From Henriciella sp. (GTDB taxonomy: Bacteria > Pseudomonadota > Alphaproteobacteria > Caulobacterales > Hyphomonadaceae), in NCBI GenBank assembly GCA_027019605.1, contig JALUWJ010000184.1, forward strand, positions 1-45,560: a stretch of DNA of 45,560 nt, written 5' to 3'. The translations under genes and the position numbers were made by a program. Every line of letters starts with the position of its first letter. The stretch's first letter is position 1. This document shows, in pieces, positions 11,141 through 42,289 of this stretch. Under the pieces are notes generated by a model. It did not search any database. It saw only the letters and a list, made by a program, of their open reading frames with translations, and was not told where the DNA came from.

Positions 11141-11307
11141 TGTCCTGGAATGTGTCATCCATTGAGCTGAGAACCCGGTCAAAATCAGGCCTGTGTATTT
11201 GCGCAAATCCTGCTTGCGGGGAATGCGAATTATAACCCGTCCGGATCGACTTATCTCTTCCTAGCCGCAGCGAGCGGTTAGTTTTTAGATGAAAGAGAGA
11301 TCGGATC

Positions 11308-13407: not shown

Positions 13408-14625
13408 TTAATCGAGTTTGAAAGCGCTGGCATAGGCCTTTTGATCTGCTGCGCTCATCCCAATGAGGCCAGCAACTTTGGGCCAATTTTCCACGGCCGA
13501 TCGGACTTCAATCGCTATGACTTCAGCTTCGTGCGCGGTCAACTTGAAATGCGGTGCAGCGTCCATGGCCAAATCAAACCGAGCCTCGTCGCCCTTGTCC
13601 GAGATCGCCGTTTCCAAGAGTCCGTCAGTCTCTCGAGCGGGCACGGGGTTTAGGTCATATGCTGGCGATAACCGCCACTGATTGTCACCATCATATAAGA
13701 AGCCATGATTGCGAAGGTGGTCGTCATGATTGGAGATCATGACATTGAACACAATCCGCCTGAACAGTTCATGCAAATCATCCGTCGGCGCGCTTGAATG
13801 ACGACGAATGACTTCAGCGATGTCTAAATAGGTTGCCTGGTCGCCATCATTTTTGCCAAGCAAGCTCATCGCCGACAGAAATGGAATACGCTTGGCGCCA
13901 TCACGGTCAAACCTGCGAATGATGGAAACTGGCCGACCAGCAACGCTTTCGAGGCGGGCGGTAGCGGCGGTGATGCCGGCAGCCTGTGCAAGTTTTAATG
14001 ACAAGACTTCACCATGTGCGATGGAGCGTGTGTCGTCGGGTTTCGGAAACTTCGCAATCGCAAGAACATCGCCATCTTGGACTGCAGATTTTGGGCGTGC
14101 TCCGCCGAGCGGGGAACCCTCGTTTAGTAACATACGAAGCTCTGCGTCCGTCTCATTGTCCCCAGCAACGGCGTTGGCGGCGTCCAATAGAGCCGGAAGC
14201 TGAATCAAAGGCGGAACACGGTGGCCACCAATATCGTGCTCGAAATCGTCTTGGTCCGCGCGGCGGTAGCGCAGCGCGCCAATGCGGGTCTCATCATTAA
14301 TTCCCAGCAGATAATCAAATTCTGTGAGCTGGCGATCGATCTCGGCTTTCCTGAAAGCGCGCTGGATCAGTTTTTGCCCCCAACGATCCGGGGCACTATC
14401 TCGAATGGCCCCCGGCAGGCTCGACTTTTCAGTGCGCGTATATACCGGGCCTTCGACCAAGGGCAGATTTTCAGGGTCGAGCGCGAAACCTATATCTGAT
14501 TTCAGCCAAGCCGCGTCATATTGAAATTCTGACGTCGAATGGCGCCGCTTGGTAATCAAACGGCAACGCCCCACAAGGTGGGCCTCATCATCCATATCCA
14601 AGTATATGCCGATCACGTCTGACAT
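13408..14625 (-). CDS. hipA: HipA-family serine/threonine kinase toxin
   Basis: A 405-residue HipA-like kinase. An N-terminal couple_hipA-type domain (GFALDPENLPLVEGPVYTR, then LPGAIRDSAPDRWGQK) is followed by the kinase core. That core has GSPLGGARPKSAV near 170-182, the ATP lysine in VLAIAKFPKP near 187-196, the catalytic loop ISNHDDHLRNHGFL at 297-310, and the metal-binding PAYDLNPVP at 321-329. HipA proteins phosphorylate aminoacyl-tRNA synthetases (GltX in E. coli) and stop translation. It begins two bases after the hipB stop in the same transcript. On an ICE it probably serves maintenance. All key residues look intact. Confidence 0.9.
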   Translation of the reverse strand: MSDVIGIYLDMDDEAHLVGRCRLITKRRHSTSEFQYDAAWLKSDIGFALDPENLPLVEGPVYTRTEKSSLPGAIRDSAPDRWGQKLIQRAFRKAEIDRQLTEFDYLLGINDETRIGALRYRRADQDDFEHDIGGHRVPPLIQLPALLDAANAVAGDNETDAELRMLLNEGSPLGGARPKSAVQDGDVLAIAKFPKPDDTRSIAHGEVLSLKLAQAAGITAATARLESVAGRPVSIIRRFDRDGAKRIPFLSAMSLLGKNDGDQATYLDIAEVIRRHSSAPTDDLHELFRRIVFNVMISNHDDHLRNHGFLYDGDNQWRLSPAYDLNPVPARETDGLLETAISDKGDEARFDLAMDAAPHFKLTAHEAEVIAIEVRSAVENWPKVAGLIGMSAADQKAYASAFKLD

Positions 14626-15631: not shown

Positions 15632-16039
15632 TTAGTCTGCTGCGAGGAATGGCTCTGCCAGTTCTCTCAACTTATCGGGAATCGCGACTGCCTTGCGGTC
15701 TTGTAGATCAAAATAAACCGAGATGCTCTCGAGCGTCGCGGCGAGATTTTGTCGCGTCAAATTGTGCATCTCATAGTGCACTGTAATCGACTTGCCGCCC
15801 ACCTTTATCAACTTACCGCGCACTTCTAAGAGATCGCCGCTACCCACTTCATCCTGATACTCAATGGTGTGCTTCACATCCGCCCAGCCTGGTTCATCAC
15901 CTCCCGCGGACCAGCCAAAAACCTCTCTGAGGAAATGATATGATGCATCATCAAACATCGCCACATAGTAGCGCGTTGTCATGTGCCCAATGACATCACA
16001 AAGCCAAGGATGCGCAACACCTTTATGTACACTTATCAT
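15632..16039 (-). CDS. Hotdog-fold acyl-CoA thioesterase (likely betainyl-CoA thioesterase type)
   Basis: A 135-residue 4HBT-type hotdog thioesterase. [20 protein letters not shown] near residues 14-33 carries the active-site aspartate and the D-x-x-G-H-M motif. The remainder has the usual beta-sheet pattern ([20 protein letters not shown]). Together with the BKACE enzyme it overlaps by four bases, it matches the carnitine route, where dehydrocarnitine is split and betainyl-CoA is then hydrolysed to glycine betaine. L-carnitine dehydrogenase, the preceding enzyme, is not in the window. Other short-chain acyl-CoA substrates are possible. Confidence 0.75.
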
Positions 16040-16953
16040 GCTGAACTCCTAATAAGAGCCGGCGCCGCTTGCTTCTTGATGCCAAGCGTTTCTCGAGCCT
16101 CTTTCGGCGATTGAATGCGCGCCCCCATATTTTCTAAGATCGAGCGAGCGCGTTCAACCAATTGAGCATTGGACGCAAGTTTGCCGCGCTCAAGATAAAG
16201 ATTGTCTTCCAAACCAACCCGGACATGTCCTCCAAGCAAAGCGGCCTGTGCAACCATTGGCATTTCAAGCGCACCAATCGCAAATCCCGCCCAATTGGCC
16301 TGCGCCGGTAAATTGTCGACCATGTTCATGAAATTGCGAGGCGTTGCCTCTGCAGCCCAGCGTATGCCCATACAGACTTGGAATAAGGGCGGTGCATCAA
16401 GCAAACCCTCATGCATCAATTGTTTCGCAAATGAGATGTGGCCAAGGTCGAAGACTTCAAGCTCAGGTTTAACGCCAATTTTCTGCAATCGCTTTGCGCC
16501 TAGTCGCAGCATATCTGGCGACGAGATGTAGACGTAATTACCGCCCGGATAATTGAATGAGCCACAGTCCAGCGAGCAAATCTCTGGAAGCAGCGCCTCG
16601 ACATGCTCCATTCGCTCCAGCTGTCCAACCATGTCGGTAGCTGAGTCCAACGCGAGCGGGTCTTCGTCTGGGCCCAGATAAAGATCGCCGCCCATTCCCG
16701 TCGTAAGATTGATGACGACGTCCTGATCTGCGTCTCTGATCCGATCTACAACTTCGCGGTAAAGCGCCACATCGCGGCTTGGCGCTCCTGTCTTGGGATC
16801 ACGCACATGGATATGTGCAATGGCTGCCCCAGCTTTTGCCGCTTCAATAGATGCGTTGGCAATCTCTTGCGGTGTGACCGGCACAAGATGGGATTTGTCT
16901 GTCGAATCCCCTGAGCCTGTTACGGCGCATGTTATAATAACATCACGGTTCAT
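16036..16953 (-). CDS. BKACE-family beta-keto acid cleavage enzyme (likely dehydrocarnitine cleavage)
   Basis: A 305-residue TIM-barrel enzyme of the beta-keto acid cleavage family (DUF849). The zinc-binding H-x-H-x-R motif is in [19 protein letters not shown] near residues 45-62. [19 protein letters not shown] and the later [20 protein letters not shown], with [12 protein letters not shown] carrying further metal and substrate residues, are typical. The family condenses a beta-keto acid with acetyl-CoA to give an acyl-CoA and acetoacetate. Pairing with a hotdog thioesterase suggests dehydrocarnitine as substrate. The two genes face away from the conjugation genes and look like inserted cargo. 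Confidence 0.8.
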
Positions 16954-17553
16954 TCGTGTTTTACCAGGTCCTGTTCGGACCCCTCCATCCTTTTATGCGC
17001 CTAGTTCGCGTTATCGCGGCTCCATCCACCAAACCCCCAAAAGAGTTGGAGCGACCAACAGGCCATCTCATCATGGCCAGGTGCACAAAGGGCAATTGGG
17101 TTCAGTTTCTGAACGCTTTCTATGGTGGGTTGCGGCATCCGCGCAAGGGGGCGGCTGACGGTGGGGACCGTATTTAGTCGAGCGCCCCAATTTTAATCAA
17201 TCGCCCAATAGTACTTCGCTCGCGTCCACAGTTTTCGGGCTCTCGAATTTCATCAATATCGCGACGTGTTGCATATGCCATTCGTCCGGGTTCGTTCACA
17301 GCGATCAGCACCTGAAAGATGCGCCTCTCACGTATTGGCCTAGACGTCCCTGTCGACGTTTGAAATCTAAAAATTCTAAAGATTTCCCCGCAGCTGCGCA
17401 GCTCCTCGCGCCCCAAATCTTTTGAAGTTTTCGATGCTCCGCTGCGCTTCGCCCCGTTCAGGTTCAAACGTCGACTGTGTCGTCATTCAGGCAATGTGTC
17501 GACGGCGACAATAGGTTGCTGAGGACACCTAAACAAACGAAAGGAAGTACAAA
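16954..17553. other. 600-base region rich in inverted repeats, no convincing gene
   Basis: Between the BKACE gene and the DUF736 gene there are small perfect hairpins: GGCCAT/ATGGCC at 17061-17078 and GTTCAG/CTGAAC at 17100-17114. There is also a long-range 13-base inverted repeat at 17352-17475 (listed separately). An open frame at 17174-17467 on the minus strand (97 codons, TTG start, no ribosome binding site) overlaps that repeat and may be chance. GAAAGGAAG at 17539-17547 is the ribosome binding site of the DUF736 gene. The region could hold promoters, a transfer origin or remains of an insertion. Confidence 0.4.
17352..17475. repeat. 124-base unit bounded by 13-base perfect inverted repeats
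   Basis: GTCGACGTTTGAA (17352-17364) and TTCAAACGTCGAC (17463-17475) are exact reverse complements. Inside lie AAATCT/AGATTT (17363-17385) and the G+C palindrome GCAGCTGC (17390-17397). No flanking target duplication is evident. The arrangement suits a small non-autonomous insertion, a transfer-origin-like site or a looped regulatory site upstream of the DUF736 gene. Confidence 0.5.
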
Positions 17554-17874
17554 ATGGCGAACGCTCTTGGATATGTCAGCGAAACGAAAACCGGTTTTGA
17601 AGGTACGCTTGCAATGCTCAACCTCACCGCTTCGATCCGCTTGGAGAAGAATGATGAAAAACAGTTCGATGGCCAACCGGACTACCGGATTTTCGCAGGT
17701 GAAACCTCTTCCGAAATAGGGGCAGGATGGATCCGTCAGGCGAAAGGGTCAGGCCGCGACTATTTATCTTTGACGCTTGCAGACCCACAAATTGGGCCAC
17801 GCCGCGTCTACGCTAATCTCGCTCCGATCAAAGACAATGATGGCCGGTACGTCATCCTCTGGAACCCCAATTAA
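17554..17874 (+). CDS. DUF736 family protein (copy 1)
   Basis: A 106-residue DUF736 protein. ALGYVSETKTGFEGTLAMLN followed by LTASIRLEKN is the family opening, and a stretch like the usual PDYRIFAG...IGAGW follows (PDYRIFAGETSSEIGAGW). Proteins of this family are common on alphaproteobacterial ICEs and plasmids; their role is not known. AAAGGAAG lies just upstream of the ATG. A diverged second copy lies at 34889-35194, so the transfer module is bracketed by two DUF736 genes. Copy 1 differs in the middle and end, so it is not a recent duplicate. Confidence 0.85.
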   Translation: MANALGYVSETKTGFEGTLAMLNLTASIRLEKNDEKQFDGQPDYRIFAGETSSEIGAGWIRQAKGSGRDYLSLTLADPQIGPRRVYANLAPIKDNDGRYVILWNPN

Positions 17875-17901
17875 TCCACGCAAACCAAGTATCGCGACAT
17901 G

Positions 17902-17928
17902 ACCACGCCAGAGCGAATCTGGCGTGGT
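17902..17928 (+). terminator. Strong hairpin after the DUF736 gene
   Basis: ACCACGCCAGA (17902-17912) pairs perfectly with TCTGGCGTGGT (17918-17928) around the loop GCGAA, and GACAT/ATGTC (17896-17900, 17931-17935) extends the stem. It lies 28 bases after the DUF736 stop. There is only TTAA after it and no T-run, so it may be a weak terminator, a message-stabilising hairpin or part of the excisionase control region. Confidence 0.45.
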
Positions 17929-18008
17929 TAATGTCTGCGGCAGGGCCGAAAGTGGAACTTATACCCTTCAATTAACCATATCAGCTTGGCTTCATTCCTC
18001 AAAGCGTG

Positions 18009-18022
18009 AGTGAATTGTCACT
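18009..18022. promoter_or_regulatory. Palindrome upstream of the excisionase-like gene
   Basis: AGTGA (18009-18013) and TCACT (18018-18022) around ATTG form a perfect inverted repeat 32 bases before the excisionase-like start. It is in the right place for an operator or activator site, for example of the FseA-like protein, but no protein can be assigned from sequence alone. Confidence 0.35.
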
Positions 18023-18054
18023 GGCGTTTGTTAAACGATTAGTGAGGGGTGAAA

Positions 18055-18267
18055 ATGTCTTCCGACGGCAAAAAGAAAAAGTCGAAGCCAAGGTACTTAC
18101 TTCCCAAAGAAGCTGCGGAAATCTTGCGCGTCCGCCCAAAAACCCTCGCCAACTGGAGATGGCGCGGGACTGGACCAAAGTACCGAAAACACGGAGGGAC
18201 CGTCGTATACTGTATCGATGACCTGAAGCGTTATTCTGACGATGACGACAAGTCTCATGTCGGATGA
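18055..18267 (+). CDS. Excisionase-like HTH protein (RdfS-type recombination directionality factor)
   Basis: A 70-residue basic protein. RYLLPKEAAEILRVRPKTLA and NWRWRGTGPKYRKHGGTVVY form a MerR/excisionase-type winged helix (HTH_17) as in helix-turn-helix excisionases. Its place directly upstream of DUF2840, traF and the relaxase is the same as that of rdfS in ICEMlSymR7A-type elements. It should bend DNA at the attachment site to favour excision with the integrase at 43915-45342. The ATG at 18055 is chosen over GTG at 18049 because GAGGGG lies just upstream at a good spacing. Confidence 0.75.
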   Translation: MSSDGKKKKSKPRYLLPKEAAEILRVRPKTLANWRWRGTGPKYRKHGGTVVYCIDDLKRYSDDDDKSHVG

Positions 18268-18694
18268 CTTCACGGTTGTCTTCATGGCATGGCGTAAGAA
18301 GCGGCGTAACCATCGACTGATTTTTGGACGCCCCGCCAAGCTCATCCGACTTGACTGGCAGCGATCGATCGCGGTCTTCAAACCGGGCGATATCTTTGCC
18401 TATGAAAGATGGGAAGCCAATAAATTTGGCACCCAACACTGGTCAATCAGTGTGCTACAAGCTGCATCGAATGGCGAAGCGGTGATCGCGTATCCGGGTG
18501 TCAAACCGGGGGCCCATATACTCGCCCGAAGACATGGCTCTAACGCGTGCCGGGCTTTCTTCATCCTCTTCGATATACTGCGCAAGACAGGAGAAATAGA
18601 ATCTGTTGGCAAGACGAATTGGCAAGTCATAGGGCATCGTTTGAACGCCGGAACCAGACCTAACTACATCCTAAAAGACCTAGGGCTTGCGTGA
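18242..18694 (+). CDS. DUF2840 family protein
   Basis: A 150-residue protein of the DUF2840 family. RNHRLIFGRPAKLIRLDWQR, AVFKPGDIFAYERWEANKFG, and the C-terminal WQVIGHRLNAGTRPNYIL are its conserved blocks. It is regularly found between the excisionase gene and traF in alphaproteobacterial ICEs; the function is unknown. Its start overlaps the end of the excisionase-like gene by 26 bases, and an in-frame ATG at 18257 is an alternative start. Its stop overlaps the traF start (TGATG). Confidence 0.8.
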   Translation: MTTSLMSDDFTVVFMAWRKKRRNHRLIFGRPAKLIRLDWQRSIAVFKPGDIFAYERWEANKFGTQHWSISVLQAASNGEAVIAYPGVKPGAHILARRHGSNACRAFFILFDILRKTGEIESVGKTNWQVIGHRLNAGTRPNYILKDLGLA

Positions 18695-19437
18695 TGATAC
18701 GAGCGTTTTTCGTGCTGTCGTTGAGCGCGGCAGCCCTCTGTTTGCTAAGCCTTGCAAGCATCGAACGTGACCCAAAAGTACTCTACAATCCTAGCCCGAG
18801 CGCACCAATTGGATGGTATGAAATCAAACAATCGGATGAGTATGTTGTCGGAGATTTGGTTGCAGCTTGGCTTCCGAAACATGCAGAAGCTTTGGCGCAT
18901 AAACGAGGATATTTGCCCGAAAAAACACCGGTCATCAAAACAATCGTTGCGGTGCCCGGGGATCAATACTGTTTCAAAAATGAGGCCCTCAAAATCGCCG
19001 GCCAACCGGATCGGCCGCTTCTTACCACCGACAGCCAAGGGCGGGCATTGCCGGCGAAAGCCGATGGTTGTCGTAGATTAAAGAGCGGGAAAGTACTGAT
19101 CGTTTCCGATCGGATCGAGTCCTCCTTCGACAGTCGATATTTCGGAGAAGTCGAAGTGTCAGCCATACTTGGTCATGCCGTTTTTCTGGGAAAGTCCGAA
19201 GCTGTAGACCAATCGGAAAAGCAGGAAATGGGCGGGGCGCGGGGTACGGGCGCGCAGGGCAAGATAAAAGGCGACGGTACTAACCGGTCGCTAAGTCACT
19301 GTCTGCACATCGATTTTTATAGTACTGTTTTGAGGGCCGTAGTACTAGCCGATCGCGCTTTCTGTAATGATTACAAGGTGATTGACGGGTACCAAGTCCC
19401 GATTGATCACGGGATTTCCCGCGGTGCACCAGGGTGA
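18694..19437 (+). CDS. traF: TraF conjugation peptidase (S26 signal peptidase family) with C-terminal extension
   Basis: A 247-residue protein, longer than the usual TraF of about 175. The start is ATG at 18694, overlapping the DUF2840 stop. A membrane anchor lies at about 3-22. The catalytic serine is in NPSPSAPIGWYEI near residues 32-44 and the lysine is in PVIKTIVAVPGD near residues 79-90, the serine-lysine dyad. TraF trims or cyclises the TrbC pilin. The catalytic part ends near residue 170 (ILGHAVFLG). The remaining 75 or so residues (from MGGARGTGAQGKIKG onward) do not look like the peptidase and lie over the region just before the relaxase gene, so they may be a chance reading of a conserved DNA site. 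Confidence 0.8.
   Translation: MIRAFFVLSLSAAALCLLSLASIERDPKVLYNPSPSAPIGWYEIKQSDEYVVGDLVAAWLPKHAEALAHKRGYLPEKTPVIKTIVAVPGDQYCFKNEALKIAGQPDRPLLTTDSQGRALPAKADGCRRLKSGKVLIVSDRIESSFDSRYFGEVEVSAILGHAVFLGKSEAVDQSEKQEMGGARGTGAQGKIKGDGTNRSLSHCLHIDFYSTVLRAVVLADRAFCNDYKVIDGYQVPIDHGISRGAPG
19226..19433 (+). other. Candidate origin of transfer region (oriT) before the relaxase gene
   Basis: The segment between the TraF catalytic domain and the relaxase start contains TAGTACT (19320-19326) facing AGTACTA (19341-19347), and GGTACC-type and GGGATTTCCC-type palindromic motifs (19388, 19421). It is the usual position for oriT in elements with rlxS-like relaxases. It is formally coding for the TraF tail. No nic site can be pinpointed. 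Confidence 0.35.
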
Positions 19438-21335
19438 GAGACCACTCTGAAAACCCCTTTGAGCCGCGCCTCGGCCGCATCCGCTCGCATGGCAATGGAC
19501 GCCGCGGTCGGACCTTTATGTCCAAAGTTGCAAGATCTGTTAGCCGTGCAGGGGGCGGTAGGCGCGGCCCCAATGGAAAATGGGGTAAACCACGAACTGG
19601 AAAATTTGCTCGCCGCGTTGTCGTGAAAGCACGCATTGTGCGTTCAACTTCATCCTCAGCCAAAGCACTCCGCGAACACCTTCGCTATATAAGCCGTGAC
19701 AGCGCGGTAAAGGGCGACGACCAAGGCCGGGTGTTCGATCATGCGGACGACGATGTTGATCGAGATCAATTTTCAGGCGCCGCCAATGATGACCGGCATC
19801 ATTTTAGGTTCATAGTTTCGCCAGAAGATGGCGGTGAGTTACACGACATGAAACCCTTCATTCGTGACTTAGTCTCACAAATGGAACGAGATTTAGAATC
19901 GCGGCTGGAATGGGTCGCGGCAATCCATGACAATACCGACCACCCACACGCGCATGTTGTGGTTCGCGGGAAGCGAGACGATGGCCGCGATTTGGTGATG
20001 CCAAGAGCATACATTTCTCACACAATTCGTGAGCGCGCAGAAGAATTGGTGACCCTTGAGCTTGGTCCAGAAAGTCAGCTCGAACGTGATGTGAAACATG
20101 CCAAGCAGGTGCGCGCTGAAAGACTGACGCGCATCGACCGAACTCTGGCTCGCCTGCGTAACGAAGATGGTGTGATCGATTTGGTTCAAACGCCCATGCG
20201 ATATCGCGCTGTAAATGCTGCGCGCTTGCGAAAACTAAAAAGCCTCGGATTAGCCAATGAAATTGATAAGCAGCGTTGGAGAGTATCGAAAGAGTTCGAA
20301 CGCACATTGAAAGACCTCGGTGAGCGCGGCGACATCATAAAACAAATGCACCGCGCGCTCGGAGATCGCCGCGACAGGGTCTTCGATCCAGTTCGGCCAT
20401 TCTCTGGCGGTGCGGGGCAAGTGCCGCTAACCGGTGAACTCATCCGAAAAACTATGGGCGGGGATGGACATGACATTCCCTATGTCATCGTCGATGGACT
20501 TGATGGACGCGTCGTTCATTGCCGCGTCTCAAATGCCGAGGAGATTGACGGTATTTCCCCTGGAATGATCGTCACGCTAAAACCTCCAAATCTTGAACCG
20601 CGGCCTTCAGATGAAAACATCGCTTTGATTGCATCTGAAAATGACGGGATCTATTCGGCGGCGCTGCATCATCAATCTGACCCACGCTCAACCCCGGCAT
20701 TCATCCGCGCGCATATTAGGCGCTTAGAGGCCTTGCGGCGCCAGGGCTTGGTTGAACGGTTGCAAACCGGCGAGTGGCGCGTTCCGCGAAACTACCTCAG
20801 CAGAGTTCGCCAGCACCATGAGCGGAGCGTTGGAAAAACAGGGGCAAAGCTTGAGGTCGAGAGTTGGTCGAAACTAGAACGACAAATTGATGCCATCGGT
20901 TCTACCTGGTTGGACACTGAGCCTGCCTACGAAAGTGGTGCGCGCGGGTTTGCAGATGATGTGCGCGAAGCGATCCGTAATCGGCGTGCCATCTTGCGAA
21001 GCCGGGGTGTCCTTTCAGCGAATGACAGTAAGCTCGGTAAAGCGTCATTCGAAGCCTTAAAGCGCGCTGGCTTAGACCACCATGGGAAAACGCTGGCCCA
21101 GCAATTGGGAAAAACCTATCATCCGCTCCCGCCCTCCGGATCGATCGAGGGTATATATGTGAAGTCAATCAAAACACCTGAAGGACGATTTGCCGTGATA
21201 GATCTAGGGAAAACGCTCACGCTTGCTCCCTGGGGACACGTCATGGAGCGGGCTAAGGGACAGACGATTTCAGGTATGGTCCGCGGCGATCAAGTGTCTT
21301 GGCAAATCGGACGCAATCGAGGCCTGGGCAGATAA
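19434..21335 (+). CDS. Conjugative relaxase (DUF3363 / VirD2-like, RlxS-type)
   Basis: A 633-residue relaxase. A GTG start at 19434 is kept because FEPRLGRIRSHGNGRRGRTF is the family's conserved N-terminal block. The relaxase domain includes RHHFRFIVSPEDGGELHDM and the metal-binding three-His motif in TDHPHAHVVVRGKRDDGRD (about residues 168-186), and the DUF3363 domain covers most of the C-terminal half. The enzyme nicks one strand at oriT, stays attached to the 5' end and is carried through the channel by the TraG coupling protein. It overlaps the traF end by four bases. The sequence reads without interruption. Confidence 0.9.
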   Translation: MRDHSENPFEPRLGRIRSHGNGRRGRTFMSKVARSVSRAGGGRRGPNGKWGKPRTGKFARRVVVKARIVRSTSSSAKALREHLRYISRDSAVKGDDQGRVFDHADDDVDRDQFSGAANDDRHHFRFIVSPEDGGELHDMKPFIRDLVSQMERDLESRLEWVAAIHDNTDHPHAHVVVRGKRDDGRDLVMPRAYISHTIRERAEELVTLELGPESQLERDVKHAKQVRAERLTRIDRTLARLRNEDGVIDLVQTPMRYRAVNAARLRKLKSLGLANEIDKQRWRVSKEFERTLKDLGERGDIIKQMHRALGDRRDRVFDPVRPFSGGAGQVPLTGELIRKTMGGDGHDIPYVIVDGLDGRVVHCRVSNAEEIDGISPGMIVTLKPPNLEPRPSDENIALIASENDGIYSAALHHQSDPRSTPAFIRAHIRRLEALRRQGLVERLQTGEWRVPRNYLSRVRQHHERSVGKTGAKLEVESWSKLERQIDAIGSTWLDTEPAYESGARGFADDVREAIRNRRAILRSRGVLSANDSKLGKASFEALKRAGLDHHGKTLAQQLGKTYHPLPPSGSIEGIYVKSIKTPEGRFAVIDLGKTLTLAPWGHVMERAKGQTISGMVRGDQVSWQIGRNRGLGR

Positions 21336-21496
21336 GTCGGAAAAGTCCTCGAGCTGGCCGACATCACCACGACAGCTGTTTCCTAATTGCAGACATAAAC
21401 CAAGCGCCGCTTTCGCTTCACCGAAAACCTCTTTTGGAGCAAGCGGCATTAGCATAAGAACACAAAAAGAACACAGAATCGCAGTAGCGCGCGATC

Positions 21497-22987
21497 ATGC
21501 GTTCGTTATTCGTCTTGTTTCTGCTGTTGGCGCTGCTTCCTGAGATATCGCCTCATAGCCGAGCATCTGCATCTGAACCAAATAAGAGTATCTACTTCTT
21601 AGTAGATGTAAGTGGCTCAATGCAGCATCGATGGTTAGATGCCGAAATAGAGATAAGCAAACAAGTGTCCGTGATCGCTAACCAGCATCCCGAAGCGATG
21701 ATTTCCCGTACGGAGTTTAGAGCAAAATCTGATTCAGACTGCAGCGATGAAATTGCCATTGTCGACCCGGTACCGTTGGCCCTACTGGAGGAGCCTCAGA
21801 AAGAAAGAACTTTTGCGACAGACGATTATTCACCATTGGGATCAGCGCTACTTGCGGCGATCACGCATGCGAAAATGGGGCCCGCAGAAATTTTTCTGGT
21901 CAGCGATTGGGCGCAATCGCCGGGCTGTGGGGTAACAATTGAGGATGCGATACAAAGTGTCGATCCCGATGCCGATATCGCAATAACGCCGATTATAATC
22001 CGCGCCAACGATGCTGATTTAGTCTTAGCGAAGGAAGCGTCGCGTTCGCGCTTTGTCGTGATTTCTGATGTGAGCAACGCGCCCACCAATACAAATGGCG
22101 TTGGTGTTCCAAAATTGCGAACGGAGGTCTACGGACCGCCGAAATCCTTCTCTCTCAAATGGCTATTTGTACCACTCAGCTTGATATTTTTCGGTGCGTC
22201 CGTCGTGATATTTCTCACGATGGCGCTTCGAAAAAACGAGGCAATCGCGAGTCAAGAGAGTGAACCGAAACAGAAACATAAGGCGATCGCTGCTTGGACG
22301 AGCGCCGCATTCTCTTTTGGCTTTTTGGCGTTGGCGTTAATATTGTTTAGCGACGCTCAACGAGCGCAGTTTCCATTTTTGTATCAACAAATGAATGGTC
22401 GCCTACTATCCGGCTTGATATTGAACTTGATGCTCGGGTTCGTTGGTTGGTCCCTCATACAAGTGTGGGGAATTAATGAGTTCCGTCAAAAAACGGCCAA
22501 CCGGAAGTACATCAAAGAGCTAGAGGAAACCCGACGAAACCAACGCTTAAAAGATCGAGAAGATAAGTTCCAAGCAAACGACAAACCCAAGCTTGAACGC
22601 AAGCGTGTCTACGCAACCTCGAAAGTCGAAAACGTAAAGCAGCGCCGGCTGCTAATGTACCAAGGTCCGCTCGAAGAGTCTGGTCTGCTCGCTTTATCTA
22701 AAAAAGTTGCGCGCGTGGAACAAAACTTGGAGCGCCTCGTAGAGAAGTTTTTTGCTGCTGCGAAGAGAGATGACCGACAAACACTGTCCGCATTTTTGAA
22801 TGCGTCCAGGCAAAATTACTCTGAGGTTGCCGACTTGCTGGTAGAGCAATCCCTTCTTGATGAAAAAATCGCCATAGGGGCGAATGAAGTGCTAGCAGCC
22901 TGGGAACAAATTTTAGATGGCGATCGGAGTGAAGTTGCAGAATACTCCCGATTGATCGAACAGTTCAACGCCGACACTATTGCGTAA
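21497..22987 (+). CDS. VWA-domain membrane protein of the transfer module, function unknown
   Basis: A 496-residue protein with a signal peptide at about residues 1-25, then a von Willebrand A domain with the metal site DVSGS at 37-41 and the later FLVSDWAQ near 133-140. Membrane segments follow at about 222-243 (WLFVPLSLIFFGASVVIFLT), 265-285 and 303-325. A charged, probably coiled-coil region (YIKELEETRRNQRLKDREDK) and a helical cytosolic tail complete it. It sits between the relaxase and the coupling-protein gene, on the same strand, where I know of no standard VWA gene in Trb systems. It could be an adhesin or mating-pair factor, or a MIDAS protein recruiting the coupling protein. No family name can be given. 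Confidence 0.7.
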   Translation: MRSLFVLFLLLALLPEISPHSRASASEPNKSIYFLVDVSGSMQHRWLDAEIEISKQVSVIANQHPEAMISRTEFRAKSDSDCSDEIAIVDPVPLALLEEPQKERTFATDDYSPLGSALLAAITHAKMGPAEIFLVSDWAQSPGCGVTIEDAIQSVDPDADIAITPIIIRANDADLVLAKEASRSRFVVISDVSNAPTNTNGVGVPKLRTEVYGPPKSFSLKWLFVPLSLIFFGASVVIFLTMALRKNEAIASQESEPKQKHKAIAAWTSAAFSFGFLALALILFSDAQRAQFPFLYQQMNGRLLSGLILNLMLGFVGWSLIQVWGINEFRQKTANRKYIKELEETRRNQRLKDREDKFQANDKPKLERKRVYATSKVENVKQRRLLMYQGPLEESGLLALSKKVARVEQNLERLVEKFFAAAKRDDRQTLSAFLNASRQNYSEVADLLVEQSLLDEKIAIGANEVLAAWEQILDGDRSEVAEYSRLIEQFNADTIA

Positions 22988-36432: not shown

Positions 36433-36987
36433 TCATTTTGCTTTCGACTTCAGCGATTCAATAGCTAGAACGCATTCATCGACGACGACTTCGATCGATC
36501 GTGTTGCATCGATGATACTATCAGCGCGCTTTGGAAGTTCATGTTCCAAATCTCCCTCAACGCTGTGACTTGCAGCTCTCGTGAAATCGCTGGCGTCGTC
36601 TCCTCGGATTGAGGCACGTCTTCTTCGTTCGGAGTCGTCGACTTCCAAATGCAATAAGAACAGATTTCTCGGGAACAGATGGGCACTTAGCGCATCGACA
36701 ACTGTCAGATGTCTGATGCCGTCTACTACCAAATTTTCGTCTTCTCTGACCTCGAAATAATCGAGCATCTCCTGACAAAACCGGTTTACGCTTTGGCGCT
36801 CTCTAAGCTGGCCGACATCTTGAAGCTGTTTTCGATCGCCCGGGTCTCCACCCGCAGATTCGACGAGAAAACGCACGAACTCTCCGAAACTCGCGCGTTT
36901 CCAACCCAACGATCGCGCCACGAGCCCACTTACGGCCGTTTTACCGCTGCCAATCTTGCCGCTGAAGCAAACGACCGTCCCGCTCAA
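36433..36987 (-). CDS. P-loop nucleotide-kinase-like protein (operon gene 7)
   Basis: A 184-residue P-loop protein. Walker A is GKIGSGKT at 10-17, and the later VVDGIRHLTVVDALS near 87-101 and SERRRRASIRGDD (an arginine-rich lid) place it with small nucleoside-monophosphate kinase or dephospho-CoA-kinase-like folds. DRKQLQDVGQLRERQ near 51-65 recalls deoxynucleotide monophosphate kinases used by phages for base modification. It starts with an ATGA overlap at the end of the ASCH gene. It is the last gene of the seven-gene minus-strand operon. The substrate is unknown. Confidence 0.72.
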   Translation of the reverse strand: MSGTVVCFSGKIGSGKTAVSGLVARSLGWKRASFGEFVRFLVESAGGDPGDRKQLQDVGQLRERQSVNRFCQEMLDYFEVREDENLVVDGIRHLTVVDALSAHLFPRNLFLLHLEVDDSERRRRASIRGDDASDFTRAASHSVEGDLEHELPKRADSIIDATRSIEVVVDECVLAIESLKSKAK

Positions 36988-37490
36988 AACGCGAAGCTTC
37001 TTTGTTTGTCGGTCAACGGCACCCAGCCTCGTCGATCCCTCTTCGCGACCTTCAAGGGTTGAATCTCAATCGTGTCGCACAACCCGATGATCGTCGCATA
37101 CGCTGCGGTCCTCTGATACTCCCAAAAAGCATCGTCCGCACAGATGCGGGCGCCATATTTCTCGCGCACAAAATCGATCGAGTCCGTATCGAAAAAGTAG
37201 AACGCGGTATCCAGCGCTCGCGTGATCGCTCTTACAGGTCCACCAGACTGCTTAATGAGTATGACATCACCTATGCCGACTCTTTCGAATGGAGCACAGC
37301 GAACTCGGCTAAATCTAGACTCAACCGTTTTTCGTCCGTCTAGGACATAGGACAAATACGGTTCGGAGAACACCGCCAAGTGAACTTGAAGTGGCGAACT
37401 ACCATTTATGATTTCATCCACATATGTCAGCCAAGCTGGGTCGGCTGCGAGCCGTTCGCGTAATCCATCATAGTTGATTGTCGCCGACAT
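36984..37490 (-). CDS. ASCH-domain (PUA-like) protein (operon gene 6)
   Basis: A 168-residue protein. LQVHLAVFSEPYLSYVLDGR and KTVESRFSRVRCAPF give the ASCH signature G-x-K-x-x-E-x-R (Gly52, Lys54, Glu57, Arg59), followed by GDVILIKQSGGPVRAIT. ASCH proteins bind RNA or modified nucleosides, and some are amidohydrolases such as YqfB. It overlaps the methyltransferase gene by 64 bases in another frame and the kinase gene by four, an unusually deep overlap that points to coupled expression. Reading a modified nucleotide is a reasonable but untested guess. Confidence 0.78.
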   Translation of the reverse strand: MSATINYDGLRERLAADPAWLTYVDEIINGSSPLQVHLAVFSEPYLSYVLDGRKTVESRFSRVRCAPFERVGIGDVILIKQSGGPVRAITRALDTAFYFFDTDSIDFVREKYGARICADDAFWEYQRTAAYATIIGLCDTIEIQPLKVAKRDRRGWVPLTDKQRSFAF

Positions 37491-38743
37491 GACCGCTCCG
37501 CTGCCCTGGGTCGGACTTCCTCAATCGCTTCCCTATCTGCAAGCCTTGAAAGAGCTGCATTCAAACGAATGATGAGGCGATCCGCACTCGTTTCTCCCGG
37601 CCCACGTAATGAGGTGATTTGCTGGCTGGCGTAAAGCCCAAGCGAGGCTGCCTCCAACAACAGCTCAGGATGACCCGATTGAAATATCCTGTTTCCTGAT
37701 GTCCAAACGTCTGCGTGAACTCGCCGAGGGTCATGACGACTCACTGAAGGAAGAATTTCGCCTCGGACGATTGGGGTTAGCACGTTGCTAGAGCCAGAGC
37801 GTTTGTTTGACGTTCGGACAAAGATCCGCATCCGTCCCAAAACACGTTCGGACCAGCGATGCTCGTTCAAACTTTCGGTTTGCACGCTATGAATATTGCG
37901 CGCGACTTTCCGAAATGTGACCAGATCAGCAGTGCGCCAAATGGGCGGTGCGCAAAGTCCCGCCGCCACCAACGCGTTTGCTTCGAAGAACGGGGTTTCA
38001 TAACACAGCGCTCCCGCTTGGACCGTCTCGAGCGATAAGCCCAGTGATTTCGCCAGAGAAAAAACTTGGGCGCGGTGTTCAAATGTGTGACGGCCGGTTC
38101 CAAACGGAGCCAGAGCAAAATGTAAAGTACCCCCTAACTTGCATGCGAACACCGCCGACTTCAGCATCCCTGCGATAAAGTCGTCATACCATGGGGGGTC
38201 TATTATGACGGAGTCGGCTTGTCCCTCCTCTAATATACTCCCGCACCTAGCAGTTAGTAGAGGCTCCCCAGCGCGGCGATTTTCTAAATCGATTAAATCC
38301 GCCACAGCGTTGTCTTCTCCAAAACATGTGACCGATTGAGGCAGCGCTTGCTTTATCGCGAGCCTTGCGACGCCCGGAGTTCCAAACAACAGGATTTTTC
38401 CATTTTCTGGGGCAGATCGACTGGCCGCCCCAAGGATCTTTAGCGCACTTTCTTTAGTGAAACGCCATTCAAAATTTAGAGGATGTGGGGGTGGCAGTGA
38501 CCTGTCAAAAATCAGTTCTTGTTGGTCTTTGGTCGCGCTCTTTTCCAATGCACGAAAGGCTTCATCGCTGATTTCGTTCTCCCGACGGAGACGTTTGAGA
38601 GAAGCTAATACCGCCGTAGGATAGATCCCCGGCAAGCATCGTAGAAGCGTCTCAAAGCTCATGCCACGAGCCAACGTATCGCGCACCCAGGTATCGACCC
38701 TGTGCTCAAACGGCAAACGTGACATCGCAGCGTGATCTATCAT
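37427..38743 (-). CDS. DPPW-type SAM-dependent methyltransferase-like protein (operon gene 5)
   Basis: A 438-residue protein. The N-terminal 70 residues are helical and could bind DNA (SFETLLRCLPGIYPTAVLAS). KILLFGTPGVARLAI near 116-130 resembles motif I, and SVIIDPPWYDDFI at 178-190 carries the catalytic DPPWY of amino-methyltransferases (N6-adenine and MT-A70-like). The C-terminal 150 residues do not match anything I know. It would transfer a methyl group to nucleic acid, most likely adenine, but a nucleotide substrate is possible. Start and end overlap both neighbours. No restriction gene accompanies it. Confidence 0.7.
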   Translation of the reverse strand: MIDHAAMSRLPFEHRVDTWVRDTLARGMSFETLLRCLPGIYPTAVLASLKRLRRENEISDEAFRALEKSATKDQQELIFDRSLPPPHPLNFEWRFTKESALKILGAASRSAPENGKILLFGTPGVARLAIKQALPQSVTCFGEDNAVADLIDLENRRAGEPLLTARCGSILEEGQADSVIIDPPWYDDFIAGMLKSAVFACKLGGTLHFALAPFGTGRHTFEHRAQVFSLAKSLGLSLETVQAGALCYETPFFEANALVAAGLCAPPIWRTADLVTFRKVARNIHSVQTESLNEHRWSERVLGRMRIFVRTSNKRSGSSNVLTPIVRGEILPSVSRHDPRRVHADVWTSGNRIFQSGHPELLLEAASLGLYASQQITSLRGPGETSADRLIIRLNAALSRLADREAIEEVRPRAAERSCRRQSTMMDYANGSQPTQLG

Positions 38744-39780
38744 CCAGCCGCTCCAAAAGCCTTAATCGGCACGTTGTAGATCGGCATGGTGCGCAGGTCG
38801 TTGGCGAAACGAGCTGTAATCTCATTGTTCCAACAAGCAATCGCCTCTTCCTGTAAAGCCAGACTAAGCGTTCTTTCGTCGTTCATGCGAGCATGAACAG
38901 GGCCATAGGCACTGATGCGAAGCGGGATAATCCGAAGAGGTAAATTGGGGTGAATTGCCTGCAGCTGATCGAAAAAGGCACTGATTTGCCCCGATAAATC
39001 AGAAGTTCTTGGGGACGTAAGTGTGATGTAGCCGTAAAGATCAATGTCCAGCTTCAACATACGCTGCATTATCTCAAATTGGCGCAGGTAACCGGAGGCA
39101 TCCGCTTGCGTATTGAAAGTGAAAGACGCTTCGTCAAATCCTTTGAAGCAACACACCCTGCCGTAGTTTTGGTAGGATTGAAGATCTTCGATGTCACCAA
39201 ATGATAACTTGTCGAACAGAAATGTCGTACTCAGATTATCATCGGACCATAGATAGGTTGCGTTCGCGAGTTCTGCCTCTTTGAGCGCCCGCATCATCCA
39301 AACCGTCCATTCAGGAATAAGATCCGGTGAACCACCCGACAGATCTATGATCATGGGTCGGTGTTCATCCTTCTCATATAGTGCGACGAGGTGTTCTGCA
39401 GTGGCCCATACAGATCGCGCGGGATTAGCGCTCAATAAATTGTAAGGCACAAAACAGTACCAACAACGCCACGGACAGGCAGCATTCTGGAAGACCTGCG
39501 CCGTCATCTCGGAATGTTCTGGCGGCAAGCCCAAAGCTTGCCGAGCCGGTTCGATTGGAAGTGGATTCGAAGGCCACCCCTTGGCCGTCTTATGTTTGAA
39601 ATGCCGTACCCGGCCAAGTCCATCACAGTTCGGAGGTAGTGTCAGATCGCCTTCCTGATCAGATCCACTCAATTTTGATACTAGTATTTCGCGACGCTCA
39701 ACATTGATTGCGCGCGCCCTTAGATGTGCGACCATTTTTTCGGTATCGATGAGATTTGGCTGCGCACTCATATTTGTCAC
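38740..39780 (-). CDS. Radical-SAM enzyme (operon gene 4)
   Basis: A 346-residue protein. CPWRCWYC (Cys102, Cys106, Cys109) is the C-x3-C-x2-C motif that holds the [4Fe-4S] cluster, followed by MIIDLSGGSPDL near 143-154 as the SAM-binding GGxP-like motif. No second cluster motif is evident at the C-terminus. It is not viperin-like (the motif context differs). The enzyme would make a 5'-deoxyadenosyl radical for a difficult modification. It begins at GTG (39780) overlapping the preceding stop, or at ATG 39771. Confidence 0.82.
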   Translation of the reverse strand: MTNMSAQPNLIDTEKMVAHLRARAINVERREILVSKLSGSDQEGDLTLPPNCDGLGRVRHFKHKTAKGWPSNPLPIEPARQALGLPPEHSEMTAQVFQNAACPWRCWYCFVPYNLLSANPARSVWATAEHLVALYEKDEHRPMIIDLSGGSPDLIPEWTVWMMRALKEAELANATYLWSDDNLSTTFLFDKLSFGDIEDLQSYQNYGRVCCFKGFDEASFTFNTQADASGYLRQFEIMQRMLKLDIDLYGYITLTSPRTSDLSGQISAFFDQLQAIHPNLPLRIIPLRISAYGPVHARMNDERTLSLALQEEAIACWNNEITARFANDLRTMPIYNVPIKAFGAAG

Positions 39781-40355
39781 TATGCTCTGATTGGCGGAAC
39801 GTGTTCGCCTTCAGCCTTCACATTCGCCAATCGTTCATCGAAGTAGTGTTCAATCAGCGCCAAACAGTACTCTACCTCATCATCAGAAAGCGGACGGCCC
39901 TTTGGTATAGCGTGCCAATAGTCGAGACAGGTCCGGCAACATGTGGCCGTCGCATGTTGTGCGTAGAAGATCGGGTTTTTCTCGAACGGGGTCTGTTGGC
40001 CATCACGATAGGGATTTGCGGGAGCGAGATATTTTTCCAGTCTAGTTTTCGCAGCCGTCTTTAGATCGGTACGACCCTTGCGGCGCGCATAATTGATTGC
40101 CCACGGATCCATCTCGCGATGAAAAAACGTGTGTCGAATTAGCTCTCTCTTGAGCGCATCGAAAGTATGCGCGGCGTCCTTTATGTCACGCGATTGCACG
40201 CGCTCCCAATCGACGAGATCGGCATTGCATTCACGGCATTTGCCCCTGTCTTCTTTGGGCATTCGTTGAGTTGCCTTGAAGCAATGCAGATCGTTTTTGC
40301 AATCCGTCGCTGTGCAAGAAATCTTCAGTGGTTCAGGCTTCTTGAGTTTCGTCAT
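39780..40355 (-). CDS. Cysteine-rich (probable zinc or iron-sulfur) protein (operon gene 3)
   Basis: A 191-residue protein. Cysteines lie at 14, 19, 25, 40 and 43 (SCTATDCKNDLHC, then CRECN), with a second set in TATCCRTCLDYWH near residue 140. These could form a zinc-ribbon-like site or bind a cluster. A His-rich stretch (ELIRHTFFHREMDPW) follows the first group. It starts two bases after the Xre-ImmA gene and overlaps the radical-SAM gene by one base, so it is likely a partner or electron carrier. No family recognised. Confidence 0.65.
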   Translation of the reverse strand: MTKLKKPEPLKISCTATDCKNDLHCFKATQRMPKEDRGKCRECNADLVDWERVQSRDIKDAAHTFDALKRELIRHTFFHREMDPWAINYARRKGRTDLKTAAKTRLEKYLAPANPYRDGQQTPFEKNPIFYAQHATATCCRTCLDYWHAIPKGRPLSDDEVEYCLALIEHYFDERLANVKAEGEHVPPIRA

Positions 40356-40357
40356 TG

Positions 40358-41818
40358 TTATGCTCCTTCCAGCGCGCGTTGCAGCAACCCACGATCGCGT
40401 TCATCGCCCATCTCAAATGCAAAGCGTTCGAAGAATACCTCTCTCGCGATTTCCCATGGGTCCGCATCGTCTTTTTGGAGGTTAGCGGCGGCGCCCCACC
40501 AGTTAATGTCCTGCCAAGACAGTCTGAAAGCCAGGTAATTAGCTAGCAGACCAACATCGACATCTTCTTTCTCTGCAACATTCTGCACCACCGACTTGAG
40601 GTTTTGCACGCGTCCCTTCGCTAGCTGAACGCAAAGCTCCGCGAGTTCCTCGGCCCTCCCATCTAGACAGACTTCGCCGGCAAATTGGCTTGCCATCACT
40701 TCCTCGTCAGACTCGCGTCGCTCCGCAGACGTTTCGTCCATCTCGATCACTTCGAAGGTGGGCTCATTGGGGTGCTGTGAAGTGTGATAAAGCTCGTGAA
40801 GCAAATCGAAGAGCCAACGCGCAATGTGCCCAGAGCGCTGCTTCAACACGATAACGTTTCGTCCGTCATACCGCCAACATGCGCCATGAAAAGTTCCTGC
40901 ATCGCGAAGGGGGAGCACCGCAACACCAAGATCCCAGGCATAATTCAAGCATGATCGAAAGGAGATTTCATGATAGTTATCCAAAATCGCAGAGCGCATC
41001 ACGTCGGGCTCATCCGGAACCAATGCTGGTTCGAGCTGCGGCGATCCTTGCAACACCAATAGCGCAAGATAATGCGCATAGGCGGCGTATGCGCTTGTTG
41101 TTTTCTGGCTACGCGCAGCGGGCATTTTGAAACGCGCCTCGGCCGCTGCCAGTTCGGGTGGTGGGAGCGGTGTGTCACTAAAAAGTAGGTCGCGAGTCCA
41201 TCCAAAAACGCGATCCAGAGACTCCGATGCGCTATTCACGATCAAGCCATCATTGTATTCGCTTTCCCCCAATCCACGCTCCAACCGGGCAGCATCTTTC
41301 GAGGGAAGAAGTCGAGAAATGAGGAAGTCTTGGCTTAATCCTACTTGTTCAACTTTCTTAGACAGACCATCAAAGTCTTCAGCTCTGAACGGCACAAAGA
41401 TATCCTGCGTCACTCGAATATTGAGTGCGTCTACAATTTCGGTGAGACGTTTTAGTGAGGCTCCAGAGTATTGCTCGGCCTCATATCGCTGGATTTGTTG
41501 CGGTTTTAGCCCCAAACGCTCCGCGAGATCTTTTTGGCTAAGTCCCGCCGCAATGCGCGCTTTAATTAATCCATTGGCGAGCTCACCAAAGCTCTCGACT
41601 TCAATCACGGGGGCTTCGGAGGTTAGAAGCGCCTCATATTGATCGATCTCGAACAATAAATCACTCAGCTGACTTTCCAGCGCTTCTCGTTCAGCTTTCA
41701 AGAGCAGGGGATGTACATCATCACGCGTATCTTCTGTGGCCTCCAGGGCATTTAGGGCAGCTCTAAATTTATCAGCTTCGGCGCGCGTTATTCTGTACTG
41801 GCGTTCGTTCGTAATCAT
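40358..41818 (-). CDS. Xre-ImmA/IrrE regulator with metalloprotease domain (operon gene 2)
   Basis: A 486-residue protein. A helical N-terminus (to about 65) is followed by an Xre helix-turn-helix at about 79-135 (LIKARIAAGLSQKDLAERLG and so on). An ImmA/IrrE-type zinc-peptidase domain has HELYH at 341-345 and further Glu ligands around 370-375 (DEEVMASQFAGEVCL). In other systems, ImmA-type proteases cut a repressor or act as sensor. Here DNA-binding and protease domains are in one chain, so it may cut a partner or itself. It overlaps DUF6932 by four bases. It probably binds the palindromes at 42255-42289. Confidence 0.85.
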   Translation of the reverse strand: MITNERQYRITRAEADKFRAALNALEATEDTRDDVHPLLLKAEREALESQLSDLLFEIDQYEALLTSEAPVIEVESFGELANGLIKARIAAGLSQKDLAERLGLKPQQIQRYEAEQYSGASLKRLTEIVDALNIRVTQDIFVPFRAEDFDGLSKKVEQVGLSQDFLISRLLPSKDAARLERGLGESEYNDGLIVNSASESLDRVFGWTRDLLFSDTPLPPPELAAAEARFKMPAARSQKTTSAYAAYAHYLALLVLQGSPQLEPALVPDEPDVMRSAILDNYHEISFRSCLNYAWDLGVAVLPLRDAGTFHGACWRYDGRNVIVLKQRSGHIARWLFDLLHELYHTSQHPNEPTFEVIEMDETSAERRESDEEVMASQFAGEVCLDGRAEELAELCVQLAKGRVQNLKSVVQNVAEKEDVDVGLLANYLAFRLSWQDINWWGAAANLQKDDADPWEIAREVFFERFAFEMGDERDRGLLQRALEGA

Positions 41819-42258
41819 GTGACACTCCCAAGATCGATCAACAGCACTCCCTTCGCGGTTCCATTGCGATCACTTTGAAAAAAATCGCGATAAAGCACGC
41901 CGGCGGCTGCAGTCGCTGAGGCCGGGAAAAGTTCACCTTGATACTTCGCTTTCATCGCGCGCCGACCGTCATTGAACGTCAGCAACGTCGCATCGATCAG
42001 CGTTGGGTCGACTCCCGCTGGTTCCCATGCTCCGTCATAATCATTCGGCAGCTCCTTGCTGGAGACAAAGCTCCCGTCCAACAAAACTTCGCGGCACCCA
42101 GCGGCTTTAAGGTTCAAGAGTGCCAAGCGCAGGCCATCAATCATGCGAAGCCTGTGGCCGTTTTGGCCGCATAGGGCGACCATTTCTGGCCAAGTCACCG
42201 GATGAGCACCGGGTGGCAAATAACCTGTGTCTGGGTCGATCTCGATTTTCATGGACAC
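41815..42258 (-). CDS. DUF6932 nucleotidyltransferase-like protein (operon gene 1)
   Basis: A 147-residue protein. VLLDGSFVSSKELPNDYDGA near residues 58-77 looks like a minimal nucleotidyltransferase motif (Gly-Ser, then Asp-x-Asp) and fits the DUF6932 family. GTG at 42258 or ATG at 42252 may be the start; the latter would give an almost leaderless message from the promoter at 42267-42289. It is the first gene of the operon and overlaps the Xre-ImmA gene. Similar pairs look like toxin-antitoxin or control units. Activity is unknown. Confidence 0.72.
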   Translation of the reverse strand: MSMKIEIDPDTGYLPPGAHPVTWPEMVALCGQNGHRLRMIDGLRLALLNLKAAGCREVLLDGSFVSSKELPNDYDGAWEPAGVDPTLIDATLLTFNDGRRAMKAKYQGELFPASATAAAGVLYRDFFQSDRNGTAKGVLLIDLGSVT

Positions 42259-42289
42259 AACAAATATGTTGTGTTGACGATAACGTCAA
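42255..42289 (-). promoter_or_regulatory. Promoter and two palindromic operators of the seven-gene operon
   Basis: ACACAACA (42255-42262) faces TGTTGTGT (42267-42274), and TTGACG (42274-42279) faces CGTCAA (42284-42289), two perfect inverted repeats that touch. On the minus strand the second supplies a TTGACG -35 element, and CATATT (about 42262-42267) lies 16 bases downstream as a -10 element. Transcription would begin near the DUF6932 start, with little or no leader. The sites fit autorepression by the Xre-type protein of the operon. Confidence 0.55.

Follow-up and report, generated by a model that had tools for sequence, protein, structure and literature searches.

The 45,560-nucleotide (nt) stretch of contig JALUWJ010000184.1 from Henriciella sp. 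(the whole of the DNA analysed, referred to here as the window) carries on its minus strand, at 36433-42258, seven tightly packed open reading frames (ORFs) that overlap or nearly overlap one another. We propose that they are a switchable nucleotide-hypermodification cassette, present on conjugative elements among other places and with a probable anti-invader use, a reading to which we give a probability of about 0.4. In order of transcription the genes encode a DUF6932 protein, a protein joining an XRE helix-turn-helix to an ImmA/IrrE-type metallopeptidase domain (XRE-ImmA), a DUF4186 protein, a radical S-adenosylmethionine (SAM) enzyme, a BpsA-like transferase, an ASCH protein and a P-loop protein resembling nucleoside monophosphate (NMP) kinases (Table 1). 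Six of the labels given in an earlier note on this DNA were kept, its 'Cys-rich' gene now being named DUF4186, while its 'DPPW methyltransferase' had to be changed to the BpsA-like transferase.

In the proposed mechanism, DUF6932 and XRE-ImmA would form a control head, in which XRE bound to a palindrome over the operon start would keep the operon off; the ImmA-type protease, or the loss of the partner, would lift this repression upon invasion or stress. The radical-SAM enzyme, together with DUF4186, would alter a nucleotide or base. In loci that have it, the BpsA-like enzyme would add a SAM-derived group; the NMP-kinase-like protein would phosphorylate the substrate or the product, and the ASCH protein would bind or process the modified base. 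Whether in the nucleotide pool or once incorporated, the product would most likely be directed at foreign nucleic acid. The gene set and its order, the palindrome, the predicted folds and motifs, the co-inheritance and the carriage by plasmids were read from the sequences and their comparison, and from them we infer that the operon is repressed and induced, what its substrate and product are, and a role against invaders. We consider unlikely a bolder form of the proposal, a mobile immunity of a new kind in which a toxin-antitoxin (TA)-like protease switch would start the synthesis of a novel modified nucleotide by a radical-SAM enzyme with two extra cysteines, its DUF4186 partner and a BpsA-like alkyl transferase; charged by the kinase, this nucleotide would poison or mark replicating foreign nucleic acid.

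The seven genes recur together across phyla

When 84,980 species genomes were scanned with a pattern filter for the radical-SAM gene, 87 relatives were returned, and the best 80 of these 87, which represent many phyla, were analysed as loci. Sufficient flanking DNA (4.5 kb or more ahead of the radical-SAM gene and 2.6 kb or more beyond it) was present in 62, the other 18 being short. Among the 62 loci, family profiles detected the radical-SAM enzyme in 62 (by construction), XRE-ImmA, DUF4186 and the kinase in 58 each, the transferase and ASCH in 56 each and DUF6932 in 46, with all seven families in 36. The seven slots are filled in 50 of the 62 loci when fusions and the swap of DUF4160 for DUF6932 are counted, because the 'missing' kinase or ASCH is fused and 11 loci have DUF4160. 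Thus, the kinase scored as missing in L027, L032 and L062 is present as a fusion, as is ASCH in L059; altogether, fusions of four pairings were found in six loci.

One strand and the canonical order were conserved in 44 of the 51 loci with all seven families. A few loci (L022, L042, L067 and L089) are rearranged. Note that the gene-order count, like those of motif residues, distance correlations and palindromes below, includes the window and the plasmid loci. The earlier note had argued that at least five of the seven genes occurring together in unrelated genomes would support a system. In line with this, 36 of 62 loci hold all seven, and the return of the same genes in the same order across phyla exceeds chance.

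The ORF coordinates also agree with the seven overlapping same-strand genes that had been described, including a 64-base overlap of transferase and ASCH (37427-37490). The remaining junctions are overlaps of 4 nt (DUF6932/XRE-ImmA), 1 nt (DUF4186/radical SAM), 4 nt (radical SAM/transferase) and 4 nt (ASCH/kinase), and a gap of 2 nt (XRE-ImmA/DUF4186). Across the loci this last spacing has a median of 93, probably an artefact of start choice.

Pairwise protein distances of the seven families were correlated over 48 loci (r 0.62-0.92, against at most 0.22 for the best permuted value, with 200 permutations per pair), shared species history contributing to these correlations. On the radical-SAM tree, the phylum label changes 25 times, against a possible minimum of 13 and 52.9 after shuffling (0 of 200 shuffles as low). 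The gene therefore clusters by phylum well beyond chance; Cyanobacteriota form one group and the phyla are mixed elsewhere, a picture consistent with some transfer between phyla. The transferase family was detected in two of 385 genomes of the host's class (presumably Alphaproteobacteria, to judge from the nearest radical-SAM relatives), and precisely these two have a full-length XRE-ImmA; five further genomes match just the N-terminal part of XRE-ImmA. To judge from these comparisons, the seven genes are one system. Unrelated cargo brought together by chance would suit a window that is a mobile element with an integrase, IS110 and conjugation genes, but this explanation is refuted by the recurrence of the same set and order in distant phyla, by the fusions, the co-divergence and the shared palindrome, and we leave it almost no probability.

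A putative control head with a conserved palindrome

Both motif aspartates of DUF6932 were kept in 61 of 61 aligned sequences, in a motif (GSF...NDYDG) that we take to be of the pol-beta nucleotidyltransferase type, and the protein matches the PADLOC family PDC-M63A at 9.4e-8. XRE-ImmA has the HExxH zinc motif of the ImmA/IrrE metallopeptidases at residues 341-345, with H341 and H345 in 74 of 74 sequences and E342 in 72 of 74.

The first gene more likely starts at ATG 42252, just past the palindrome, than at GTG 42258, and a TTGACG lies upstream of the palindrome at 42284-42289. A strict CACAA-N6..10-TTGTG was present within -80..+6 of 46 of 60 DUF6932 starts (the 60 of 61 heads with at least 60 nt upstream), where the rest of the loci predicts 0.0007 per interval. 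In these 46 heads the palindrome ends 2-4 nt before the start codon, as chosen by script, in 34, and TTGAC lies upstream of it in 28. In the host genome (3.37 Mb, 84% complete) the 18-base palindrome has one exact match; allowing one mismatch gives 5 places versus 7 for the reversed control pattern, so that only the exact site stands out. A promoter scan listed no promoter at the palindrome region. The conservation of this palindrome suggests a dedicated auto-repression of the operon, with XRE-ImmA as the protein that would bind it, and agrees with the previous proposal of silencing by the Xre-ImmA protein.

DUF4160 replaces DUF6932 in 11 of the 12 loci that have XRE-ImmA without DUF6932 (the exception is L075), and occupies the same slot in two short loci; its identity by Pfam rests on one member. 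Heads of this type have palindromes of their own, seen by eye and without statistics: AACGTATACGTT in L038, L042 and L061, with one base off in L029, and TTAACAT-N2-ATGTTAA in L035, L069, L074 and L079.

Elsewhere, DUF6932 pairs with a short XRE of the same N-terminal type (L093, L095 and L096, the DUF6932 frame of L095 being only 80 amino acids (aa)), with no ImmA part and no payload families within the approximately 3.4 kb examined; the palindrome is present at L093 and L095. Because DUF6932 forms such pairs without the payload, the DUF6932/XRE head looks like a reusable control or TA-type module. The same XRE N-terminal type is also found on longer proteins with other C-terminal parts in L094 and L097, with a further gene after each of the two frames (463 and 432 aa).

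A payload of predicted enzymes

The cluster motif CxxxCxxC, which characterizes the radical SAM superfamily, is invariant (Cys102, Cys106 and Cys109, in 85 of 85 aligned sequences), although the Pfam score is below the cut-off. Further cysteines are found on both sides of the triad (Cys52 in 84 of 85, Cys211 in 85 of 85), an arrangement that we presume to be somewhat like that of RlmN/Cfr; curated family models gave no RlmN/Cfr match.

DUF4186 has five invariant cysteines (Cys40, Cys43, Cys139, Cys140 and Cys143; 67 of 67). Its predicted model (pLDDT 94.0) found no match in the PDB (best row E 1.8, Z at most 2.8), so this partner is possibly of a new fold. E. coli YneG, described as an orphan of unknown function (PMC9283627), belongs to the DUF4186 family (PMC11502571, PMC9283627). 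Separately, relatives of DUF4186 were found in eight viral contigs (L106-L113), with none of the other profiled families seen in the DNA examined.

The transferase has a helical N-terminal domain, a DPPWY motif and a C-terminal SRRD...WTSGNR region. The alignments used in the structure work were subsets, of 59 transferases and 67 DUF4186 proteins, window included. Foldseek placed 2qm3 and the BpsA structures on top for the predicted model of the transferase (pLDDT 89.6; best E 6.1e-11). With VIA-align, whose six best entries are five of BpsA plus 2qm3, BpsA 6j27_C aligned at Z 23.0 and rmsd 3.6 over 269 residues, spanning model residues 8-335. The alignment takes in the N-terminal domain, and the model has the BpsA fold. 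Outside BpsA and 2qm3, the top row (Z 17.4) belongs to a putative RNA methyltransferase, with METTL5 next. The earlier note had the DPPW protein methylating nucleic acid; this was not borne out, as the nearest fold is that of BpsA, an aminopropyltransferase. We therefore set aside, provisionally, an ordinary nucleic-acid methyltransferase: searches of Pfam, NCBIfam and PADLOC gave nothing for the protein at E 1 and so no curated methyltransferase family, and BpsA leads the fold entries, yet the profile of the family gives a methylase as its best row (see below).

The likeness to BpsA has its bounds. The 59-member profile found no BpsA in the PDB by sequence, and PF01861 (BpsA_C) matched neither the transferase nor the host genome, while control genomes do match. 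BpsA uses decarboxylated SAM, and its GDDD motif holds the aminopropyl group (PMC12979288). A conserved Asp pair is absent from the invariant and 90% columns of the 59 transferases, and at motif I (columns 119-127), to which we infer that GDDD corresponds, at most 1 of 59 sequences is acidic in any column. Because of this, the transferase would probably use SAM or another donor.

Free nucleotides or a polymer

The kinase matches PHROG 139, a deoxynucleoside monophosphate kinase, at 2.4e-5. Against the PDB, the best rows matched by its profile over nearly full length are AdkA-like/UPF0200 proteins (1.7e-12), and adenylate and UMP/CMP kinases come next. The AdkA-like rows are outscored by two long chains (adenylate-kinase-9 or cilia) with a best stretch of only about 40 positions. 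The best PDB row of the ASCH profile is weak (PH0355, E 0.028, plus relatives). Moreover, a dCTP-deaminase-like gene is present in 7 of the 80 loci, in 5 of them between DUF4186 and the radical-SAM gene.

A sister operon on an Agrobacterium plasmid combines a related transferase with a PUA-like-metallophosphoesterase, DUF7002 and a fusion of P-loop kinase and adenylosuccinate synthetase, and Rhizobium leguminosarum pRLN3 carries a similar annotation. Among solved structures, the synthetase is closest to adenylosuccinate synthetases of 340 residues (E 9.3e-51), and the seventh-ranked chain bears the label PurZ (5.5e-28). The transferase-phosphoesterase pair was also found in two viral contigs, in one beside a primase-helicase that we take to be of the phage-satellite type. 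The NMP-kinase-like profile, the deaminase-like gene, the sister operon and this pair are hints that point to free nucleotides rather than a polymer.

The strongest alternative is post-synthetic modification of DNA or RNA bases, in which the radical-SAM enzyme, DUF4186 and the BpsA-like enzyme would act on the polymer, ASCH would read the mark, and the mark would shield the element from host nucleases or label self. Members of the PUA/ASCH superfamily bind nucleic acid, binding to modified bases is predicted for some ASCH domains, and ASCH, a P-loop ATPase and XRE recur in predicted base-modification operons (PMC7641849). The RNA-methyltransferase-like fold rows after BpsA would suit it too, and carriage by plasmids fits anti-restriction; but no nuclease was found by Pfam among the seven proteins (an HNH_5 gene lies near only 5 of 80 loci), and the kinase and the optional deaminase-like gene point to free nucleotides. 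The lack of a nuclease also argues against classical restriction-modification. We rank the nucleotide cassette above modification or marking of a polymer, which is on balance rather unlikely.

The same enzyme-like payload without a nuclease, spread widely yet sporadically, could make a small nucleoside-derived signal or antibiotic exported from the cell. Pfam showed neither an exporter nor a self-resistance family in the seven proteins, the gene set is nearly constant across phyla and, to our knowledge, a TA-like head with a dedicated operator would be unusual for such clusters, all of which makes this origin quite improbable. We also doubt, if slightly less strongly, a stress or repair system that would correct or replace damaged nucleotides, or modify tRNA or rRNA, and so stabilise the element or the host. 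Nucleotide salvage would be a fitting task for the radical-SAM and NMP-kinase-like parts, and a DNA alkylation repair gene (PF08713; 35546-36271, plus strand) is convergent to the operon; that gene lies on the opposite strand and is no part of the conserved set, and the rarity of the system, seen in 2 of the 385 genomes from its host's class, speaks against a household role.

Several observations weigh against the nucleotide cassette as we propose it. Open-licence literature searches found no activity, substrate or phenotype for it. The radical-SAM enzyme resembles known enzymes weakly, the best PDB rows of its profile having E 0.02 and 0.28, and the transferase profile matches methylases alone, and weakly, its best row being the putative methylase HI0767 (E 0.0089, 67 positions). 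The helical N-terminal domain of the transferase, with ASCH, would fit a polymer substrate too. Six of the 62 loci (L038, L041, L056, L063, L075 and L082) have no transferase, so it is not required in every version; L030, L051, L072 and L081 (4 of 62) have neither head nor DUF4186, and ASCH is missing in L085 and L086. The strict palindrome is absent from 14 of 60 DUF6932 heads; several of these carry a near variant, and in L063, L085, L086 and L088 not even that was visible by eye. Finally, the tally of defence-like neighbours given below counts PADLOC families, not proteins, and has no control set.

Mobility and neighbouring genes

Plasmid records gave seven matches to the radical-SAM enzyme, each covering at least 80%, and six of the seven are on plasmids typed as conjugative. 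The five plasmid loci examined (Rhizobium, Roseovarius, Tolypothrix, Aulosira and Nostoc) have the seven genes in the same order; on the Roseovarius plasmid the transferase gene is unannotated and its frame is open. Compared with strain PCC 7601, Tolypothrix PCC 7712 carries an insertion of 18,401 bases (PMC9679502), and the cassette, at 15,983-21,923 of the plasmid, lies inside it. As regards a phage origin, two pattern-filtered viral_contigs scans and 50,697 phage records contained no relative of the radical-SAM enzyme.

In the window, an IS110 transposase and a tyrosine integrase with DUF6538 adjoin the operon (Pfam), and relaxase-like, coupling-protein, CagE/TrbE/VirB-, TrbL- and TrbI-type conjugation genes are present; the window is a conjugative or formerly conjugative element. 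A HipA-type toxin gene (HipA_C, Couple_hipA) is found at 13408-14625 on the minus strand. In a scan of 300 of 488 candidate neighbour ORFs of 150-700 aa, the commonest Pfam families included Phage_integrase (10 members), conjugation families and AbiEii, and the PADLOC families among the first 25 of 350 and of 160 included E1-E2, mad8, AbiE, BilD, dGTPase, HNH and Aga_. The cassette thus keeps the company of mobile-element and defence-like genes, an observation made without a control set, so that enrichment is not established.

Other observations concern the ASCH and kinase genes. ASCH relatives (42-45% identity) occur in viral contigs L114-L116, with none of the other profiled families seen in the DNA examined. 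L059 has a second kinase-like protein (11322-12320) with a C-terminal extension weakly like Rv2175c_C. In L002 a gene annotated as DUF763 (10321-11583) follows the kinase with a 4 nt overlap; at the same position L016 has a 424-aa frame (8894-10165), and the neighbour scan covering that frame lists one DUF763.

Table 1. Features of the cassette in the window and of related loci.
Feature	Locus	Position	Strand	Evidence or remark
Probable operator palindrome CACAAC-ATATTT-GTTGTG	window	42256..42273	read on -	ends 3 nt before ATG 42252
DUF6932 protein, nucleotidyltransferase-like motif GSF...NDYDG	window	41815..42258	-	Pfam DUF6932, E 1.1e-29
XRE helix-turn-helix and ImmA/IrrE-type metallopeptidase domain in one protein	window	40358..41818	-	HTH_3 1.6e-11, Peptidase_M78 1.2e-5
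DUF4186 domain with Cys-containing N-terminal extension	window	39780..40355	-	Pfam DUF4186, 1.1e-34
Radical-SAM enzyme, CPWRCWYC	window	38740..39780	-	Pfam Radical_SAM, 1.5e-4, below cut-off
BpsA-like SAM-fold transferase	window	37427..38743	-	no Pfam match; predicted structure
ASCH (PUA-superfamily) protein	window	36984..37490	-	Pfam ASCH, 0.018, below cut-off
P-loop NMP-kinase-like protein	window	36433..36987	-	Pfam AAA_18, 7.8e-10
Fusion XRE-ImmA/kinase	L027			
Fusion ASCH/kinase	L032, L062			
Fusion transferase/ASCH	L059, L072			
Fusion ASCH/DUF4186	L042			
DUF4160 in DUF6932 slot	L067	13497-13745		
Sister operon	L008	6908-12485		BpsA-like, PUA-like-metallophosphoesterase, kinase-adenylosuccinate synthetase, DUF7002
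Sister operon	L090	6634-11411		annotated like L008
Sister operon	L009			BpsA-like transferase
Sister operon	L104	6680-9048		BpsA-like transferase, PUA-like-metallophosphoesterase
Sister operon	L105	742-3110		BpsA-like transferase, PUA-like-metallophosphoesterase

Comparison with known systems

Neither PADLOC (2023) nor the open-licence literature searched yielded the seven-gene set as a described system, in line with the earlier note, which knew of no described system with this set. By its composition, the set would be new in kind. In PADLOC, the head proteins match partly (PDC-M63A, RmrA, PD-Lambda-2 and others) without completing a system, and the payload matches weakly (VakA E 0.0037, pVip E 0.0023) or not at all. 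A viperin was rejected on score (NF038283, 15.3 bits against a cut-off of 180; PADLOC pVip, 15.4 bits). Dnd (PMC10853773), BREX (PMC12839542) and SGI1 (PMC9035990) were considered and are other systems.

A conserved multi-enzyme payload across phyla and conjugative plasmids would imply a chemistry so far undescribed in bacterial conflict or nucleotide biology. DUF4186, and with it YneG, gains an operon context, and the conserved palindrome is a starting point for finding out what turns the cassette on.

Viperins (pVip) with VakA also combine a radical-SAM enzyme with a nucleotide-kinase-like protein, whereas the cassette has a multi-gene payload and a TA-like head. BpsA, the branched-chain polyamine synthase, shares its fold with most of the transferase chain, N-terminal domain included; the transferase differs in lacking PF01861 and GDDD, in having the SRRD...WTSGNR region and in its operon context. 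The stand-alone pairs of DUF6932 and a short XRE have the same first protein and the same XRE N-terminal region as the cassette, and differ in being without the ImmA part and the payload.

The sister operon of rhizobial plasmids has a related transferase, a PUA-like domain and a related P-loop kinase, but an adenylosuccinate-synthetase-type enzyme and a phosphoesterase replace the radical-SAM enzyme and DUF4186. Finally, the nearest published idea that we found in the open-licence literature is that of the (PIN)-GNAT-EVE operons, credited to Iyer et al., which contain ASCH, an AAA_17 P-loop ATPase and sometimes XRE (PMC7641849). None of the seven proteins matched GNAT, PIN or EVE at E 1 (Pfam). 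The cassette shares with these operons the combination of ASCH, a kinase-like P-loop ATPase and XRE in a predicted base-modification or TA setting, and differs from them in its radical-SAM enzyme, DUF4186 and BpsA-like transferase.

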